Virus record (IMG/VR): IMGVR_UViG_3300044825_000783
Location: 1 to 23,107 of that record
Strand: one strand, 5' to 3'
Source: a virus
Length of the DNA: 23,107 bases
Shown: piece after piece, positions 748 to 12,104 of the stretch
How the letters are laid out: the number at the start of each line of letters is the position of its first letter
Position numbering within the stretch: position 1 is the stretch's first letter
Notes under the pieces: generated by a model
Told to the model about the DNA's origin: nothing
What the model saw: only the letters and a program-made list of their open reading frames with translations
Database searches by the model: none
Translations under genes and position numbers: made by a program

Positions 748-2934
748 TCACGGCGCCAAATTGGCCATTGCTTTCCAAGTGCCGGGCGTCCCAGCAGTCG
801 TGCAGACCCATCCAGGAGTGCCGCCAGCAGATGGCGTGTTGTTCCACACAATGTCACCCCGCGCCCATTCCCCAGCAGCAGGCGTGGAGGCCGCATAGGT
901 CTGCACGTTCTGAGGGAAGCTGGGCATTGTGACGCTGGGAAGACTCTTGCCGATCCACAGTTCAAGTTGGTACAGCAGCCATGCTGTAGTAGCAGACCCG
1001 GTGAATCTCACACCCATCGTCGTTGGGTTGACTGTCTGAGCAGTGACAGGAAGCACCAGAACAAAGTCAGTGCCTGAGTCTGCCGGAAGCCAACTCCTAC
1101 CGCCTCCGATATTGGTACCGTTAAACAGGAATGTAATTTCCAAAAGCGACGAAATAGTTGGCAACGTGCCGCGCACGACCACAAACATCTGTCCGCCCTG
1201 CGGGAAACTTCCGCGCAGACGACCTTGAATAAACGCATTAATTGACCCCGCGCTTGGGGCAATACTCAAACTACGTCCAAACGCGGCGTTGACCGATGGA
1301 ACAAAAGTAGTGCCCCCGAAGCCTTGAACTAACACCTTTCCGGGGTCAGGGTATCCGCCGTCAAATGCCCAAAGCAACTCAGATTGCTGGTTATTGTGGC
1401 TGGTTGCGCGGAAGGGCTCATTGCCTACACCCCCAGCCGGAGAGTTTGAGCAGTTGTCGAACGTAAATCTTGGATCGTTAATTGCGGTTCCAGGATTACG
1501 GTAGTTGCAGTTGGTCAGCTTTACTTGGCATGAATACGTGTTCAAGAAAAAGTAACTTTGAAGCGGATCGCTAGTTCCAGAAAAAGTCGCATCTCTGAGT
1601 TCGGTTGCGCCATCTTCATTAATTCTAAACGGAGACGCTATTCCATTATTGAATTGCGGGGCAATAAACAATGTTCTTCCGCGCTCTTGGTATACGGAAT
1701 ATGCAAGGCCAGAACCAGTAACTTCAATCCAAAATCCACGGAATGTTGCGTTCGGGAAACGACTCCAGTCTGGGTCGTAATCGTTTCTCAAAAACAAGGC
1801 AATCCAGCCAGATGATGGCGTGCTTGGCTCAATGAGAAAATTGGTGGCTTGAATCTGTCGGATTCCACCAAGATTGCAGATGATCTTTTCGCTATTGGCG
1901 GGAATAGATCCTTCAACATCACAATTCTCGATCGACATGAAGGTACCGATCAGAGTGCCAACAGTAGAGTGAAAGCTACCAGAGTTTGTGAAGCGCACGT
2001 TGGTGTAGCTGCTCAACTGAAAGTAAGTTCCAGTCAGATACACAAACGGACGCTCAACAGCAGAGAAGTGGACGTTCTCAAAAATATGCCGCACCGAAGA
2101 GGCCGATTGGACAAAAAACTTGCGGTCCAAAACATATTGAGCACATGCAAACTGCATGCCTCTAACTTCGAGATTGTTTCCTGCGCTTTGACGATAAAAA
2201 AAGCTGTTTGGATCGGTGCTGTCAAGAATTACGCATGACCCATCGGCAGTTGCTGCACTGCTGGCGTAGTAATCGAGTCCTTCCCCAAACATGGCGACAC
2301 TGTTGTTTGTCGAGTTGGTGTATCCAGAGGTGACGCGATACTTTCCTGCCGGGAAGTACACCGCGCCATTGCGAGACAGCACAGCGTTGATGGCCGCCTG
2401 AATCGCCACCGTATCATCCGCAACCCCATCCCCCACCGCCCCAAAGTCCTTCACACTCACCACATCCCGCATCTTGCTCTGCGCAGTGCGGACGACGGCT
2501 CCGGTGCCGGCTTGGAGGAACGGAATAGCCGTATCAGCCACACCCGTAGTAACTACGTTGGCCCCATCGCAACGCAGCACAAGCGTATATCCGTTTGGAA
2601 CCGAAATACCTGTGCCAGACGATGTCTTGAGCGTTTGCGCAAAGCCGCCTGCGGTGTTGTTTGTAACGATGTAAACCTTGCTTACCGCAGGGCAAATGAC
2701 GTTCCGCGCCGCTCCAGGGGTGCCCGTCAAGTTCAACACCATCGCCCGGGCTTCATCAGTCGCCCCGTTGGCTGTGGACAGCGTGTAGTCCGCTGTCGTC
2801 ATGGTGATCGTAGCGGTCCCGGCAATAGAAGTGTCGATCAACTCGAAGGTGCCGTTGTTGACCGTGGTGCCCCAGCCCGTGTCATTGAGCCCAGGCTTGG
2901 TCAGGCGGAGAAGAGGGGTGAAGGTAGACGGCAT
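748..2934 (-). CDS. Tailspike with pectate-lyase-type beta-helix
   Basis: The 728-residue protein is a probable receptor-binding tailspike, possibly degrading a host surface polysaccharide. Residues 1 to about 145 look like a virion-attachment region (LTKPGLNDTGWG at 11-22, then beta-rich sequence). Residues 158-200 carry the Pectate_lyase_3 signature: VSVKDFGAVGDG, a DDT..IQAAI helix and VYFPAGKYR. A long right-handed beta-helix should follow to about residue 520, then a beta-rich domain. The last 45 residues (GEWARGDIVWN...GTPGWVC) form a Trp/Gly-rich module that recurs at phage fibre C-termini. Codons for the middle of the protein look AT-richer than the flanks, which suggests an exchanged receptor-binding domain. 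Catalytic residues cannot be assigned by eye. It follows the repeat protein by 12 bases and leads into the lysis genes. Confidence 0.87.
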   Translation of the reverse strand: MPSTFTPLLRLTKPGLNDTGWGTTVNNGTFELIDTSIAGTATITMTTADYTLSTANGATDEARAMVLNLTGTPGAARNVICPAVSKVYIVTNNTAGGFAQTLKTSSGTGISVPNGYTLVLRCDGANVVTTGVADTAIPFLQAGTGAVVRTAQSKMRDVVSVKDFGAVGDGVADDTVAIQAAINAVLSRNGAVYFPAGKYRVTSGYTNSTNNSVAMFGEGLDYYASSAATADGSCVILDSTDPNSFFYRQSAGNNLEVRGMQFACAQYVLDRKFFVQSASSVRHIFENVHFSAVERPFVYLTGTYFQLSSYTNVRFTNSGSFHSTVGTLIGTFMSIENCDVEGSIPANSEKIICNLGGIRQIQATNFLIEPSTPSSGWIALFLRNDYDPDWSRFPNATFRGFWIEVTGSGLAYSVYQERGRTLFIAPQFNNGIASPFRINEDGATELRDATFSGTSDPLQSYFFLNTYSCQVKLTNCNYRNPGTAINDPRFTFDNCSNSPAGGVGNEPFRATSHNNQQSELLWAFDGGYPDPGKVLVQGFGGTTFVPSVNAAFGRSLSIAPSAGSINAFIQGRLRGSFPQGGQMFVVVRGTLPTISSLLEITFLFNGTNIGGGRSWLPADSGTDFVLVLPVTAQTVNPTTMGVRFTGSATTAWLLYQLELWIGKSLPSVTMPSFPQNVQTYAASTPAAGEWARGDIVWNNTPSAGGTPGWVCTTAGTPGTWKAMANLAP

Positions 2935-2946
2935 GATGGAGACCTT

Positions 2947-4689
2947 TCAGGCAGAAGTAGTTTGCCAGTTTGGGTTTTGGGCGTCAACCGCGGGCGTCCA
3001 GCCCGGGCCTTGTGTTGCGGGGACAGCTTGCCAGTTTTGATTCTGGGAATCCGCAACCGAAGCCCACCCCGGCACTTGCGTTGCGGGGACGGCTTGCCAG
3101 TTTGCGTTTTGGGTGTCGATAACAGAGTTCCAGAGATAGTTAGCGATTAACGCATCAATAACTGCCACACCCTCCAAGACAGACGCTAAATTCTGCACTT
3201 GAGTGCCGATGTTGTCGATTGCCAGCGAAGACTCCGTAATTAGACCCGGGAGGGACCTAACGGAGCTTGGAGTATCGAAAATTTGAACGCTGTCGGCAAC
3301 ATTGGATAATACCAACGCCAGCGAAGAGACCGTATCTAGGGCAACAGCGGTATCGGTCACAGATGCCGGGAAAGTGGCCGCTGTAGCTACTAAATCTGAG
3401 ACACGGGCTGTATCCACGAAAGACACAGGAAACGATGCGGAGGAGCTTATCGAGTCAGTTGCCGTTGCAGTATCAGAGACCGAAGACAGCATTGTGGCCG
3501 AAGACGCCCCTGAATCCGCAGCACGCGCTGTGTCAGATACCGCTGACAGAACATTTATTACCGAACTAGCCGTATCCGTAGCCTGTGCGGAGTCTGTCGT
3601 GACGGTCACAAAAACAGCAGCGGACGACGCCGAGTCGGACAAAAAGCCCGTGTCAGAAAAAGAAACCGCAAAGGATGCGGACGCGGCCAGCGTGTCTGCT
3701 ACCTTGACGGTGTCTGAAAAAGAAGCAACAAAAGATGCCGCAGAGCTTAGAGCATCCAACGCTAGGACGGTTTCCGCAACAAAACTGCTGAACGACGCTT
3801 GAGCGTTTACAGCGTCTAGGCTGTTGGCTGTATCAGACACCGGAGCAAGGACGTTTATGGCGGCACTGGCAGCATCCGCCGAAACCGCCGTCTCAGGGAT
3901 CGATCCCCTAAAAGACGCGGATGCTGACAAAAAATCGACGGCGTTTACAGTCTCTGAAAGCGAAACAGCAAAAGACGCGGATGCGCTCAATGAATCTTGC
4001 AGCCTTACTGTTTCTGGTACGGCACCGTTGAACGAGGCTGCTGCGCTTAGGGCTTCTGAAGCCTGCGCCGCATCCGAAACAGACGTCAGTACGTTTACCA
4101 AAGACCCGACGGAGTCAGATCCGTTGACAGTTTCGGACAACGATCCCCTGAAGGTAACCGTTGTTGCCGCTGTGTCGGACAGCCGAGTAGTATCGGAGAA
4201 AGATGCTAGGAAAGACGCAGAAGCTGCAACAGCATCTAGCGCCCTCACGGTGTCTGAAAAAGCAGAGATAAACGACACCGAAGCACTCAAGGCATCTGCC
4301 GCCCTTACGGTGTCTGAGACGGAAGCCAGCAAGGTAACGATAGCGGTATCAGAATCCGCCGCTAGAACTGTATCTGATACCAAAGAAGCAAATGTTGCGG
4401 AAGCGGTAAATGCATCTAGGGCCGAGACCGTGTCAGCAGTTGAACATGCAAATATGACCTGTGCAACTACTGCTTGTTCCGATCCCCAGCCACCCTGGCC
4501 CCAACCGTTGCTTCCCCATCCGTTCTGGTCGTCCAGAAAACGAGCGCTGTCTGAGAAAGAGGAGGGAAAGGTTACACGAGACGCGGGAGAATCGGCAAGA
4601 ACGGCTGTTTCAGAAACAGCGCGTTCATAGACCGAAAACCCCCACCCCCCTTGTCCCCATCCTGCTCCGCCCCATCCGCCTTCAGACAT
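2947..4689 (-). CDS. Elongated 20-residue-repeat virion protein, probable fibre
   Basis: The 580-residue protein is dominated by about 22 tandem repeats of 20 residues (about residues 84-524), with consensus roughly [VF]SDTV.A.DalSasasF.aS. Ser, Ala, Asp, Thr and Val prevail, Cys and Pro are scarce, and hydrophobics alternate with small polar residues as in a beta solenoid. Two GWG..GWGQGGWG segments (residues 5-17 and 57-69) sit at the N-terminus. Three 22-residue repeats with NWQAVPATQ.PGW end the protein. I recognise no named family. A position between adaptor/virion genes and the tailspike favours a tail fibre or adhesin shaft. The ATG overlaps the stop of the preceding gene by 8 bases. 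Repeat copies differ enough that the frame is intact throughout. Confidence 0.75.
   Translation of the reverse strand: MSEGGWGGAGWGQGGWGFSVYERAVSETAVLADSPASRVTFPSSFSDSARFLDDQNGWGSNGWGQGGWGSEQAVVAQVIFACSTADTVSALDAFTASATFASLVSDTVLAADSDTAIVTLLASVSDTVRAADALSASVSFISAFSDTVRALDAVAASASFLASFSDTTRLSDTAATTVTFRGSLSETVNGSDSVGSLVNVLTSVSDAAQASEALSAAASFNGAVPETVRLQDSLSASASFAVSLSETVNAVDFLSASASFRGSIPETAVSADAASAAINVLAPVSDTANSLDAVNAQASFSSFVAETVLALDALSSAASFVASFSDTVKVADTLAASASFAVSFSDTGFLSDSASSAAVFVTVTTDSAQATDTASSVINVLSAVSDTARAADSGASSATMLSSVSDTATATDSISSSASFPVSFVDTARVSDLVATAATFPASVTDTAVALDTVSSLALVLSNVADSVQIFDTPSSVRSLPGLITESSLAIDNIGTQVQNLASVLEGVAVIDALIANYLWNSVIDTQNANWQAVPATQVPGWASVADSQNQNWQAVPATQGPGWTPAVDAQNPNWQTTSA
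2950..3117 (-). repeat. C-terminal 66-bp (22-codon) repeats, two full copies and a partial one
   Basis: The last 56 codons of the repeat protein encode D-[TS]-QN-.-NWQAVPATQ-.-PGW twice, then a truncated third copy with DAQNPNWQ. The nucleotide copies are much closer to each other than the 60-bp repeats are, so this expansion is younger. Confidence 0.8.
3118..4443 (-). repeat. Array of about 22 degenerate 60-bp (20-codon) repeats
   Basis: Inside the 580-residue protein the coding sequence repeats every 60 bases. Each copy begins with a [VF]-S-[DE]-T segment and contains an invariant-like Asp about six residues later. Copies are diverged at nucleotide level, suggesting an old expansion under protein-level selection. 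Confidence 0.8.
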
Positions 4690-4861
4690 CTACCAACTCG
4701 TCTTCGCGGAACCAGCGGCTGATGGTGTTTCCGTCGAGGTCCTGCCACTCGATCAGACACCAGACAGTACCGTCTTCGTCCATGCGAAGCTTTTCCACCG
4801 GCCCCTTGGGGACTACGGCGCGAACTTGGACGACATCACCCTTCTTGAACTTGGTGGCCAT
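4682..4861 (-). CDS. Small SH3-like (YodC/DUF2158-like) protein
   Basis: This 59-residue protein begins KFKKGDVVQVR and ends with a WFREDELV stretch. The pattern of a GDVV turn, a hydrophobic middle strand (WCLIEW) and a terminal W-F-x-x-D-x-L matches the small SH3-like barrel seen in YodC-type proteins; this is from memory. The ATG at 4861 is preceded by AAGGAG at good spacing. Its stop overlaps the start of the repeat-protein gene by 8 bases, so the two are translationally coupled. Its role is unknown; an accessory for fibre assembly is only a contextual guess. Confidence 0.75.
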   Translation of the reverse strand: MATKFKKGDVVQVRAVVPKGPVEKLRMDEDGTVWCLIEWQDLDGNTISRWFREDELVDV

Positions 4862-4871
4862 GTTCTACTCC

Positions 4872-5450
4872 TTACTGAGCGTCGAGGCTGAAGGTGTACG
4901 TCACGACTAGGGTGTCGCCCGACACCACGGAGCGGTCGCCCGGGGAGGCAAAGTCTGCCGCCGAGAACAAGATCCCGGTCGTGCCGCCCTTGGTGCTGTT
5001 GCTGATCAGGAACGCTCCGCCGACGGTCGTGGTGCCGTTGATGCTGAACGACGCCGGGGAGGCGCTGTTGCTAATCACCGAGGGGTCCGCCGTCGTGGAC
5101 GTACCGAACGTGGCCGCCGGGCGAGCGGCTTGGCTGTACGCGGTCACCTCGGTCCAGCCCGCGTGCGAAGCTGCGGTATCGCCCGCTGCGGGGTTGTTGG
5201 AAGACCCCGCACCATAAAGGCCAACGAACCACGTTGCCGTGTAAGCACTCCCCGTGAAGTACTTCTCGTTCATGTCCTTGAGGCCGACGTTGACCACGAG
5301 GTTGTGGGATTCGGCATCCCACTTTAATACCCCGTCCTTGTCGAGGCATTGGATCTTGAACACGCCGCCAGCGCGAATGCCTTCGCTTTGGCCGGAGCAA
5401 GACAGCACGGCAGAGACGGCGCTGTCGGAGGCTTTGGATTGGATCAGCAT
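4872..5450 (-). CDS. Virion structural protein, beta-rich
   Basis: The 192-residue protein is rich in Ser, Thr, Ala and Gly. LKWDAESHNLVVNVGLKDMN lies near residues 42-61, followed by YFTGSAYTATWFVGLYG. The C-terminal half is beta-rich and low in charge, typical of phage virion surface proteins. I recall similar sequences next to adaptor genes in uncultured phages, but no defined function. The ATG at 5450 has an AAGGA-type ribosome site. It lies 9 bases after the preceding virion gene and 10 bases before the SH3-like gene, within the tail block. A baseplate, nozzle or fibre-attachment role is possible. Confidence 0.7.
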   Translation of the reverse strand: MLIQSKASDSAVSAVLSCSGQSEGIRAGGVFKIQCLDKDGVLKWDAESHNLVVNVGLKDMNEKYFTGSAYTATWFVGLYGAGSSNNPAAGDTAASHAGWTEVTAYSQAARPAATFGTSTTADPSVISNSASPASFSINGTTTVGGAFLISNSTKGGTTGILFSAADFASPGDRSVVSGDTLVVTYTFSLDAQ

Positions 5451-5459
5451 GGTGTTTCC

Positions 5460-5879
5460 TTACGATGAAAAGCGCAACAGCGCGGACGCGGCAGTGGCCG
5501 CTGGGAGTTGTACCGTGAACGTGCCCGACGCTGTCTTGTCCGCGCCAAAGTCCAGCACTGCGATGGCGCGGTTGGCCTTGCTGGCGTTGTAGATCAGCCC
5601 GCCCCGACAGACGAAGGAAGCGTTGGTCCACACCGGGTTGTTGAACGTCAGATACGCCGTGGTGCCAGAGAGCAAAACTTGAGCCCCGGTGATGGCCTCA
5701 CCGCCAGCGATGTACCCTGCGCCGACGACTTCATCAGTGGTCGTGTAAACCGTCGTGGCTTGGCTCAGGTTCGCATTGGCCATGTAAAGGGCCATCTTCA
5801 AGGTGTCGGTGTCAAGGTCGTGGATACCCAGCCAGGACTCCTGTTTGAAGGAGGAACACATTCCTTGCAGGATCGGCAT
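5460..5879 (-). CDS. Virion structural protein, beta-rich
   Basis: This 139-residue protein has a DTDTLKMALY start region, a YTTTDEVVGAGY stretch, a CRGGLIYNASKANRA loop and an AVLDFGADKT strand before a beta-rich end. The pattern resembles a recurrent small virion protein of podoviruses and siphoviruses whose function I cannot name. The ATG at 5879 follows a GAGGT ribosome site. It sits 3 bases after the adaptor gene and 9 before the next virion gene, which suggests a role near the head-tail junction or tail tip. Confidence 0.7.
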   Translation of the reverse strand: MPILQGMCSSFKQESWLGIHDLDTDTLKMALYMANANLSQATTVYTTTDEVVGAGYIAGGEAITGAQVLLSGTTAYLTFNNPVWTNASFVCRGGLIYNASKANRAIAVLDFGADKTASGTFTVQLPAATAASALLRFSS

Positions 5880-5882
5880 AGC

Positions 5883-6536
5883 TTACCTCACAGGGTTCCG
5901 TACCTGACCGCTGCGGTATGCATCCTGTCTATTTTTCCCATCACCAAGGTTCTTCAGCAGCACGAACGACTCGTTGAACTGGTTCTGGTACATCGCCATC
6001 AGATCCTGCTCGGTCTTCATAAACCTACCGGCTTCAACCATGACGGCGTTAAACAGAACGCTGTCAAAGTTGTCACTCAACCACGAAGTGTTGGCCGTGA
6101 CGATGCTTTCCGGGTAGTAGAAGTAGTGCAGTTCTGCCGTGAACCCTGCGGCGGGCGTGGGGCCGAGAATAAAGGTCAGTTCCGTTGGCAGGTTGTACAC
6201 CGGGCCAAACAGCGCGTAGTACTTCGGCGTACCCGTGACCGTTGGATTTGGGAAAGCCTCGCGGATGAAGTTGACATCCTTGTCGATCAGGAATGTGTAC
6301 TCGCCACCGCCCGTGGGAAACACAGCCAGAGAGTAGACCGACAAAAAGTCATTCGGCGCAGCAAGGTATTGATTCCCGGCACTGATGGTGCCGGTCATAT
6401 TCTTGCGTAGAGCCGGAAGTTGAACGCTGTTGTAGATCTTCTGCTCTGCCAGCTTTGTGAGCAGCGCAAAGTCAGTAGCCGAGAACGTGTTCTCGGTCGT
6501 ATCTTCAACAGCGGTCTTCAGTTCTGCGTAGTTCAC
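5883..6536 (-). CDS. Head-tail adaptor, SU10-adaptor-like
   Basis: The 217-residue protein would bind below the portal ring and connect it to the tail. It begins MNYAELKTAVEDTTENTF; LAEQKIYNSVQLPALRKN, an ILGPTP stretch, an ELHYFYYPESI stretch and SDNFDSVLFNAVMVEAGRF follow in order. From memory this order fits the phage SU10-type adaptor family of podoviruses. The start is GTG at 6536, overlapping the upstream stop by 4 bases (GTGA), which explains the absence of a spaced gene start. Its family is the strongest clue in the window that the particle is short-tailed. The family name is recalled, not searched. Confidence 0.75.
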   Translation of the reverse strand: MNYAELKTAVEDTTENTFSATDFALLTKLAEQKIYNSVQLPALRKNMTGTISAGNQYLAAPNDFLSVYSLAVFPTGGGEYTFLIDKDVNFIREAFPNPTVTGTPKYYALFGPVYNLPTELTFILGPTPAAGFTAELHYFYYPESIVTANTSWLSDNFDSVLFNAVMVEAGRFMKTEQDLMAMYQNQFNESFVLLKNLGDGKNRQDAYRSGQVRNPVR

Positions 6537-7336: not shown

Positions 7337-8032
7337 TCAGCTAATGAATTGCTGCCGAGGTACGAACCGTACTGCGGCTTTCTCTCTATCTTCCTCCGAG
7401 GCGATTCGCCAATCCTCGTCATATTGTGCTTTAAGCACCTGAAGGCGGTCCATCGCACCTGGGATCTTCAGCGCCAGATAGTACGCCAGACCGGAAACCA
7501 AGCACGGAAGGAAGCGGAAGGGGATGTCTTGGGTGTAGGTGCCGCCTGCACCAGCGTCCTGAATGCGCCGGAGATACCAGTAGACGAACTGATAAACACC
7601 TGTTTGATCGGGCGTAGGCCACACGACGATCTGAGGCGTCGGGGCTTGGCGGTTCACCCACACCTGAATCGGGCGTGCCTGCTGCAGCTTGTTGGGGATC
7701 GAAGAGTAGGTGCTGACGCTGATGCGCGTGATGGTCAGATCGACCTGGGTCGAGACGTTGCCTGCCCCCGTGCGGATGACATGCTCCAAGAGGTCTACGG
7801 TGTTCTGCGGGAGGTTGTAGGTGTTGGTGCCCTGCGTCAGGTTGATGGTGTCTTGTGCCACCGTCCAGAGGTTCACGCCCCGGTTGGCCCAGTCCGCGAA
7901 GAGCAGGTTCAGAGACCGCCGCGCCGTGCGCAGGTCATAGCCCGTGCGAAGCTCAGCACCACAGCGCTCGAAGGCTTCCTCAACCGCCTCGTTGAGGTCG
8001 AGGTTGAAAGCGGTGGTACCACTGGTAGTCAC
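7337..8032 (-). CDS. Head-tail connector or tail accessory factor candidate
   Basis: The 231-residue protein has, in order, a helical N-terminus (AVEEAFERCGAELRTGYDL), a LNLLFADWANRGVNLW segment, an RISVSTYSSIPNK stretch, a VVWPTPDQTG strand, a YWYLRRIQDAG strand, FRFLPCLVSGLAYYLALK and a basic RFVPRQQF end. This matches a widespread gp4/gp7-type connector family of phages with short or long tails. The start is GTG at 8032 and its first bases overlap the preceding stop (GTGA). Together with the SU10-like adaptor it would seal the portal and nucleate the tail. The family is assigned by pattern memory only. Confidence 0.72.
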   Translation of the reverse strand: MTTSGTTAFNLDLNEAVEEAFERCGAELRTGYDLRTARRSLNLLFADWANRGVNLWTVAQDTINLTQGTNTYNLPQNTVDLLEHVIRTGAGNVSTQVDLTITRISVSTYSSIPNKLQQARPIQVWVNRQAPTPQIVVWPTPDQTGVYQFVYWYLRRIQDAGAGGTYTQDIPFRFLPCLVSGLAYYLALKIPGAMDRLQVLKAQYDEDWRIASEEDREKAAVRFVPRQQFIS

Positions 8033-10989: not shown

Positions 10990-11838
10990 CTAGACGATGT
11001 TGTATTGAAGAACGGAGTCGAGCGTTGAGTCAATGATAAAAAAGCTAAGTCCGTCTGGTTTGAAATAGATGCCTTGGTTCGATGTGGCACCTTGAGCGCT
11101 AAAACTGAAGGTTGCCACAGTAAACGTTGCCGTGGAAATATCCCAAGGCGTTGACAGGCTGTATTCGTTTACGTCGTTTCCGCCTGAACCATTGACGTAC
11201 ATTTTTGTGCCGTCTGGCTTGAAGGCCGCGCCGCGAGGTTGCGTTTCTTGAGATGAGACATTAAAACTCCGCACATAAGATGCGGTGCTTATGTTCCATG
11301 CAGAACTAAGGCCGTACTCGTAAACGCTTGCTGGAGTGTTTGTGGCTGTAACATACATTTTTGTTCCATCCGGCTTGAACGATATGCCAAATGGAAGTGC
11401 TGTCTGTGATACAACGCTAAAATTCTGTAAATACGAAGCAGTGCTTATATCCCATGGGGTTCCAAGGTCGTATTCATTAACGTCATCACCAGTACTTCCG
11501 AGAACGTACATCTTTGTACCGTCTGGCTTGAAAAACAAATCTGACGGTGCAGATTCTTGGGCTGAAACACTGAAGTTTCGCAAGTAAGACGCCGTGCTTA
11601 CATCCCATGGTGTACCAAGATTGTATTCGTTAATATCAACCCCGATAATTCCAATAACGTACATTTTCGCGCCGTCTGGCTTAAAAAATACGCCAGTTGG
11701 CGCAGTCTCCTGCGCCGCCACCGAAAACGATTTATTCGCGTAAACGGTATACGCCACATTCCAAGCGTTACTGGGCGGCGGCGGCGCTGACGCTGCCCGC
11801 CTCATGCGTGGGAAGCCGAAACCAAACCCGAACGACAT
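10990..11838 (-). CDS. Beta-propeller-like repeat virion protein (five FKPDGTKMYV repeats)
   Basis: The predicted protein has 282 residues. After an N-terminal FGFGFGF/Pro-rich segment there are five repeats of about 47 residues, each containing FKPDG, usually followed by TKMYV, then a VNEY strand and a TPWDISTASY turn. The unit matches YVTN/lactonase-type propeller blades, and five to seven blades could close one ring. The position among virion genes and the AT-richer composition suggest a surface-exposed adhesin or receptor-binding protein rather than an enzyme; no catalytic residue is apparent. I chose ATG 11838, which overlaps the preceding TGA by one base (TGATG), over an upstream in-frame start lying within the previous gene. 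Confidence 0.8.
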   Translation of the reverse strand: MSFGFGFGFPRMRRAASAPPPPSNAWNVAYTVYANKSFSVAAQETAPTGVFFKPDGAKMYVIGIIGVDINEYNLGTPWDVSTASYLRNFSVSAQESAPSDLFFKPDGTKMYVLGSTGDDVNEYDLGTPWDISTASYLQNFSVVSQTALPFGISFKPDGTKMYVTATNTPASVYEYGLSSAWNISTASYVRSFNVSSQETQPRGAAFKPDGTKMYVNGSGGNDVNEYSLSTPWDISTATFTVATFSFSAQGATSNQGIYFKPDGLSFFIIDSTLDSVLQYNIV

Positions 11839-12104
11839 CAGAAAATCGCCAGTAGGTTCGTATTGGGCGTTGTTACCGTAGTGCCGGTACTCCACACCCG
11901 ACGCACCTGCACAGGGATGACCTGTCCAGCCTGAAGCCCGACAAACGTCACATCAGTGCCTTGGGCAGTAGTGACTTTCACGTTCCCCGCTGCGCCAACA
12001 TAGATGATGCTGGGTTGGGCAAGGTTTACCGTATCACTGACTGTGATTGCACCCGCATCCCCCGGGAACATCGGGAACGTCGGGCTGAAATTGGTCTTTG
12101 CCAT
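11838..12104 (-). CDS. Small virion protein, spike-base-like
   Basis: The 88-residue protein contains ITVSDTVNLAQPSIIYVGAA, a VKVTTAQGTDVTFVGLQAG strand pair and VIPVQVRRVWSTGTT near the end. The order resembles the small spike-base family known from the Rhodobacter gene transfer agent and related phages, by memory only. That family forms a base for head spikes, which would suit its place directly before a propeller-like surface protein. A GGGAG ribosome site lies six bases before the ATG. The ATG abuts the TAG of a 16-codon micro-ORF whose first five codons encode the same residues (MAKTN). Confidence 0.72.
   Translation of the reverse strand: MAKTNFSPTFPMFPGDAGAITVSDTVNLAQPSIIYVGAAGNVKVTTAQGTDVTFVGLQAGQVIPVQVRRVWSTGTTVTTPNTNLLAIF

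Follow-up and report, generated by a model that had tools for sequence, protein, structure and literature searches.

Described systems with related features

Several described systems share one trait or another with the repeat protein encoded in the window, the whole stretch of 23,107 nucleotides of virus record IMGVR_UViG_3300044825_000783 that was analysed. The parallel beta-helix tailspikes of phages HK620 and P22 are alike in tail gene context, and a predicted model of the repeat protein aligns with them over ~280–300 residues (Z 17–19). Unlike them, the repeat protein is built of units of exactly 20 residues, of low complexity, with neither a sequence match to these tailspikes nor a recognizable enzyme domain, and the pLDDT of its model is only ~70. 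Tailspike and pectate-lyase profiles from Pfam and the tail PHROGs do not match the repeat protein, whereas they do match the product of the gene downstream (748–2934).

In the nozzle of phage SU10, one loop of a beta-propeller with three tryptophans (W839, W847 and W857) docks one trimeric fibre (PMC9509320). Several closely spaced tryptophans in one fibre-associated chain, together with SU10-type adaptors in the same genome, recall this dock. The spacings differ, however, being 8 and 10 residues in SU10, versus aromatic triplets 5 apart and tryptophans 11 apart in the window, and no propeller family match is found in the repeat protein. Curlin repeats comprise ~23 residues with two strands each (PMC10192328). 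The CsgA solenoid is similar in its tandem units of ~20 residues, its two strands per unit and the conservation of alternate positions, but the window units are acidic (E/D, not N/Q), have 20 rather than 23 residues and belong to a phage late gene. The Pfam curlin repeat matches neither the window protein nor 36 relatives; conservation in the family's units falls on E/D, A, G, D and V. Two further repeat types do not fit: the RTX calcium beta-roll (GGxGxDxUx nonapeptide), given the period of 20 and no match to the Pfam hemolysin-type calcium-binding repeat, and the adenovirus-type triple beta-spiral (~15-residue repeat with a conserved turn Gly/Pro), given the same period and no conserved Pro.

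Two hypothetical proteins, gp68 of phage HTVC027P and WJZ48131 of Phage DSL-LC04, share with the window protein the aromatic cassettes and the slot directly before fibre/spike genes; WJZ48131 also has the Trp chain. Their units are of TGVxAxGxVG type, unlike the S-E/D-T type of the window. Judged by sequence, the repeat protein is not assignable to any tested known family.

The repeat gene and its protein

A first-pass annotation had reported a 580-residue ORF made of about 22 repeats with a period of exactly 20 residues. Its coordinates and length are exact, and the coding strand is the minus strand (Table 1); on the plus strand, stops interrupt the corresponding frame. Two long antisense ORFs (3302–3802 and 3824–4630, plus strand) share the 20-residue period and resemble shadows of the repeats on the minus strand. 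The self-identity of the protein is 0.29 (0.293) at lag 20 and 0.27 at both lag 40 and lag 60, with ~0.08 at odd lags, and the maximum over lags 5–60 in 2000 shuffles of the protein was 0.167. The period is thus far above chance and stands as claimed; the count increases to ~24 by a position matrix, which finds 22 contiguous units (residues 79–518) and two more near the N-terminus (residues 20–59). At the DNA level, identity at lag 60 is 0.415, so the units have diverged in DNA as well as in protein.

The composition is of low complexity (Ser/Ala/Asp), with a net charge of ~−43. Tryptophans are confined to both end regions of the protein and to a single cassette close to the N-terminus. The GWG-rich segments noticed earlier at one end lie N-terminally and are two in number, and the NWQAVPATQ repeats noticed at the opposite end are the C-terminal Trp chain (W520, W531, W542, W553, W564 and W575), of exact period 11. 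An exact phase between the second GWG cassette and the 20-residue units was considered and rejected: the unit-to-unit spacing across this segment (residues ~58–68) is 39, not 40.

Table 1. Coordinates of the repeat gene, the parts of its product and the neighbouring genes in the window
Feature	Coordinates	Strand	Basis or remark
Tailspike, pectate-lyase-like, downstream	748..2934	minus	Family-profile match
Repeat-protein gene, 580 aa	2947..4689	minus	ORF, periodicity and syntenic family
C-terminal Trp chain, six Trp, residues 519–580	2950..3135	minus	
22 contiguous units, residues 79–518	3136..4455	minus	Approximately [ST]FxAS[FV]S[DE]TvxAxDxVSAxA
Second aromatic cassette WGSNGWGQGGWG, residues 58–69	4483..4518	minus	W58, W63, W68
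First two 20-residue units, residues 20–59	4513..4632	minus	Last two residues shared with second cassette
N-terminal aromatic cassette WGGAGWGQGGWG, residues 5–17	4639..4677	minus	W6, W11, W16
Small ORF, 59 aa, just upstream of repeat gene	4682..4861	minus	Weak phrog_3261 match
Upstream neighbour, phrog_8123	4872..5450	minus	Related to KPP25-type phage structural protein (PDB 26la, 44nx)
phrog_644 family protein (unknown function)	5460..5879	minus	Syntenic in cultured relatives
SU10-adaptor family protein	5883..6536	minus	Family match
Second SU10-adaptor family protein	7337..8032	minus	Family match

A family found through its neighbours

The window protein has no sequence match in Pfam, NCBIfam, PHROG or PDB and none by tblastn against phages, and no publication describing its repeat came up in the literature. 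For no family member was a virion proteome or a structure found. A direct search with it for relatives in viral and genome contigs returned nothing, probably in part because of low-complexity masking. Repeats in an Arthrobacter phage minor tail protein (E 0.2) proved on inspection to be of another kind and were rejected. Profile libraries and searches with the window sequence thus miss this repeat family, and its discovery came via neighbour genes. The upstream phrog_8123 neighbour (4872–5450) served as first bait and led to 80 loci; the major capsid protein, as second bait, led to 80 more. In many of these loci, a gene downstream of the phrog_8123 neighbour specifies a protein built in the same way and 169–791 aa long, and this architecture recurs in the same slot across dozens of IMG/VR contigs, amid late tail genes. 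The window protein has every trait of the family: an aromatic cassette, 20-residue units, a Trp chain of spacing 11 and a place among late tail genes, ahead of fibre genes. Almost certainly, it represents a real, conserved and uncharacterized late-gene family. The family is previously unnamed and widespread in aquatic phages; three relatives weakly match phrog_12240 (unknown function).

Relatives by capsid protein are Planktothrix phage Pag-Yong1 (73%), Pelagibacter phages HTVC023P (65%) and HTVC027P (63%), and Roseobacter phages CRP-901/902 (55%). The acidic-unit profile had no match in any of the ten annotated phage records tested, HTVC023P and further cultured relatives among them, so the repeat protein is not universal. 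Another locus (L059) encodes an open-ended protein (start ~1909, at least 1847 aa) that begins MADRYWVGGTANWDGTAGTKWAAT and has such 20-residue units at its end; the unit therefore also occurs fused to other domains.

Modular architecture

The aromatic cassettes have the form Ar-x4-Ar-x4-Ar; aromatic residues occupy their positions 1, 6 and 11 (F2-F7-F12 in most relatives, W6-W11-W16 in the window). They are N-terminal in nearly all members examined and internal in several, and range from one to four per protein, with four copies in Phage DSL-LC04. Between the ends, 590 distinct 20-residue units were collected across the family, with a spacing of 20 in 796 intervals; the chance level of unit detection is about three hits per shuffled set. 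Conserved unit positions are the even ones (F/Y/L2, V/I6, E/D8, A10, G/A12, D14, V/I16 and A/S18), the odd ones being more variable, an alternation as in beta-strands. Positions 8 (E/D) and 14 (D) are near-invariant. Both are acidic in 514 of 549 units, a count partly favoured by unit selection, and the joint loss of the two acids is not significant (Fisher p 0.37).

The C-terminal Trp chain keeps a spacing of 11 in 129 of 130 intervals across the family. Chains with four Trp are found in 19 proteins, with two in 14, with six in 11 and with three in two. This near-exclusively even number suggests a coil of 22 residues with two Trp each.

A sister class has the same ends, but LTGVxAxGxVGTV units of 20–22 residues. 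It includes the Phage DSL-LC04 protein, a gene of MW202675 and gp68 of the cultured Pelagibacter phage HTVC027P, which is more diverged, the last two being assigned by inspection and having no clear Trp chain. The MW202675 product (L170:1-639, MW202675.1; TGV class) ends in a WNGSAWV-type Trp motif instead of Trp spaced by 11.

Copy number and selection

Repeat number changes quickly among close relatives. Loci L012 and L014 have 26 and 8 units, respectively, despite flanks that are 91–94% identical. Loci L055 and L056 (flanks 96–98% identical) are exactly one 20-residue unit apart, and L083 and L082 (flanks 94–99% identical) are 111 residues apart, with an internal cassette within that stretch. 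Among the pairs of equal length that were compared, synonymous differences always outnumber non-synonymous ones (e.g. 55 versus 37 and 88 versus 76) though most sites are non-synonymous, indicating purifying selection on the minus-strand repeat frame. As relatives keep the pattern and near relatives differ more by synonymous changes, the repeat ORF encodes a real protein and is not a shadow frame.

Predicted structure

AlphaFold2, run on the full window protein with 36 relatives, gave a mean pLDDT of 49.8, with ~65–73 over most of residues 200–410 and low values outside residues ~180–420. The full-length model is a regular parallel beta-helix over ~280 residues, of modest confidence (pLDDT about 70 there), in which each unit contributes two strands of ~7 residues (unit positions ~4–10 and 14–20). 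Six units alone (gapless, 78 rows) gave strands exactly at 4–10 and 14–20, at pLDDT 46. In a VIA alignment of the model, the top rows are right-handed parallel beta-helices with Z 17–19 (up to 19.2); Foldseek with the predicted models against PDB and BFVD returned nothing at E ≤ 0.001. Mean-field coupling analysis gives its strongest signal for identical positions in neighbouring units (+20, mean z 1.5). The +40 control comes close to it (1.1), which gives in-register stacking weak support rather than proof. AlphaFold2 over-predicts beta-solenoids for repeats, implausible stacked acids included (PMC11795689), and the parallel beta-helix is therefore a lead, not proof. The bias was demonstrated for near-perfect repeats (PMC11795689), versus only ~29% identity between neighbouring units of the window protein.

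The first-pass annotation, which knew no named fold for the pattern, had proposed a novel beta-solenoid fibre shaft. The lack of any Pfam, NCBIfam, PHROG or PDB sequence match agrees with the former. The shaft gains from the gene order and from the match of the model to parallel beta-helices, and is weakened by the medium confidence of the model and by the solenoid bias; what is new is not so much the fold as the modular architecture of variable length and its wide distribution. A beta-solenoid rises ~4.8 angstroms per coil. If each unit forms one coil, the window rod would be ~12 nm long.

Many phage fibres are obligate trimers, and the repeats could trimerize into a fibre of a different beta type, a beta-prism or intertwined hairpins, for which the monomer prediction is misleading. 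The low confidence of the monomer model, the known solenoid bias with its stacked-acid artefact and a coupling analysis that leaves room for hairpins are in favour of such a fibre. Nevertheless, the full-length model settles into a regular parallel beta-helix and the couplings are strongest at the same position of the next unit, and we consider the trimeric fibre unlikely, though to be taken seriously.

Position in the late operon and proposed role

The gene order in the late operon is terminase, portal, capsid, two SU10-type adaptors, phrog_644, phrog_8123, small ORF, repeat gene and spike. A single operon here encodes two separate SU10-adaptor family proteins (5883–6536 and 7337–8032). The phrog_8123 neighbour matches a 171-aa ‘Structural protein’ in PDB (E 4e-17), in entries that contain ORF005 of Pseudomonas phage KPP25 as well. 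Between this neighbour and the repeat gene, some loci have an inserted fibre-type gene and some have other genes. The 59-aa ORF, with similar ORFs at 63 loci (window counted once), overlaps the start of the repeat gene by 8 bases, possibly for translational coupling. On the other side, the tailspike gene begins ~13 bases past the repeat-gene stop, and the N-terminus of its product resembles fibre proteins next to the repeat gene in relatives. Most loci have a fibre- or spike-type gene 4–22 bases (mostly 13) 3′ of the repeat gene; some of these match tail PHROGs. On inspection, neither the Trp count nor the cassette count obviously agreed with how many fibre genes lie downstream.

Late tail gene order and the close downstream fibre/spike genes make a fibre-shaft role plausible. 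The best explanation as a whole, to which we give a probability of about one half, is a length-evolvable tail rod or fibre component that spaces or docks an adhesin, where we infer virion location, rod shape, fold, oligomer and partners. An aquatic phage of the short-tailed type would make the repeat protein as a late structural component, forming a stiff, beta-rich rod on the tail. By analogy with the SU10 dock loop, the conserved N-terminal cassette with its three aromatics may attach the rod to the tail hub. Stacked 20-residue units would serve as a spacer, its length shifting largely in whole units via recombination between repeats. At the far end, the Trp chain may cap the rod and/or, again by analogy with SU10, dock the trimeric fibre or spike encoded directly downstream. 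If stacked coil on coil, the acids at unit positions 8 and 14 could conceivably line up as an acidic ladder that would require counter-ions, e.g. calcium.

The fold carries no information on location, and the protein could be a decoration fibre of the capsid or neck, outside the receptor-binding apparatus; the repeat gene, however, lies beside adaptor and spike genes, not beside the capsid gene, and has fibre/spike genes close behind, which makes such a fibre improbable. Similarly improbable is an extended, largely disordered acidic polypeptide, e.g. a secreted decoy or matrix-binding factor. Low complexity, strong negative charge and low pLDDT outside the central residues are what such a polypeptide predicts, but the strict 20-residue spacing, fixed aromatics, purifying selection and even/odd alternation over 590 units are not. 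A functional-amyloid, curli-like two-sheet solenoid polymerizing head to tail, suggested by units with two strands and two short arcs each, alternate conserved positions, a 22-residue double period of the Trp chain and the ~23 residues in two strands of curlin repeats (PMC10192328), is highly improbable given the missing N/Q signature, the lack of a Pfam match and the late phage operon context.

The tail-rod reading may be extended, very tentatively and with more doubt than belief, to a modular class of phage tail rods built of interchangeable coil cassettes (aromatic-triplet, acidic 20-residue, TGV 20–22-residue and Trp 11/22-residue). Reach would be tuned by rapid gain or loss of whole units, trimeric adhesins would dock on aromatic triplets or the Trp chain, and divalent cations would stabilize the acidic ladder. 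If the rod reading is true, these phages are a natural example of tail rods that evolve in length by discrete steps, which ties adhesin reach to host range.

Elsewhere in the window (10990–11895, minus strand), a 301-aa protein with FKPDGTKMYV...NEYDLGTPWDISTASY-type repeats matches the SMP-30/gluconolactonase beta-propeller family.
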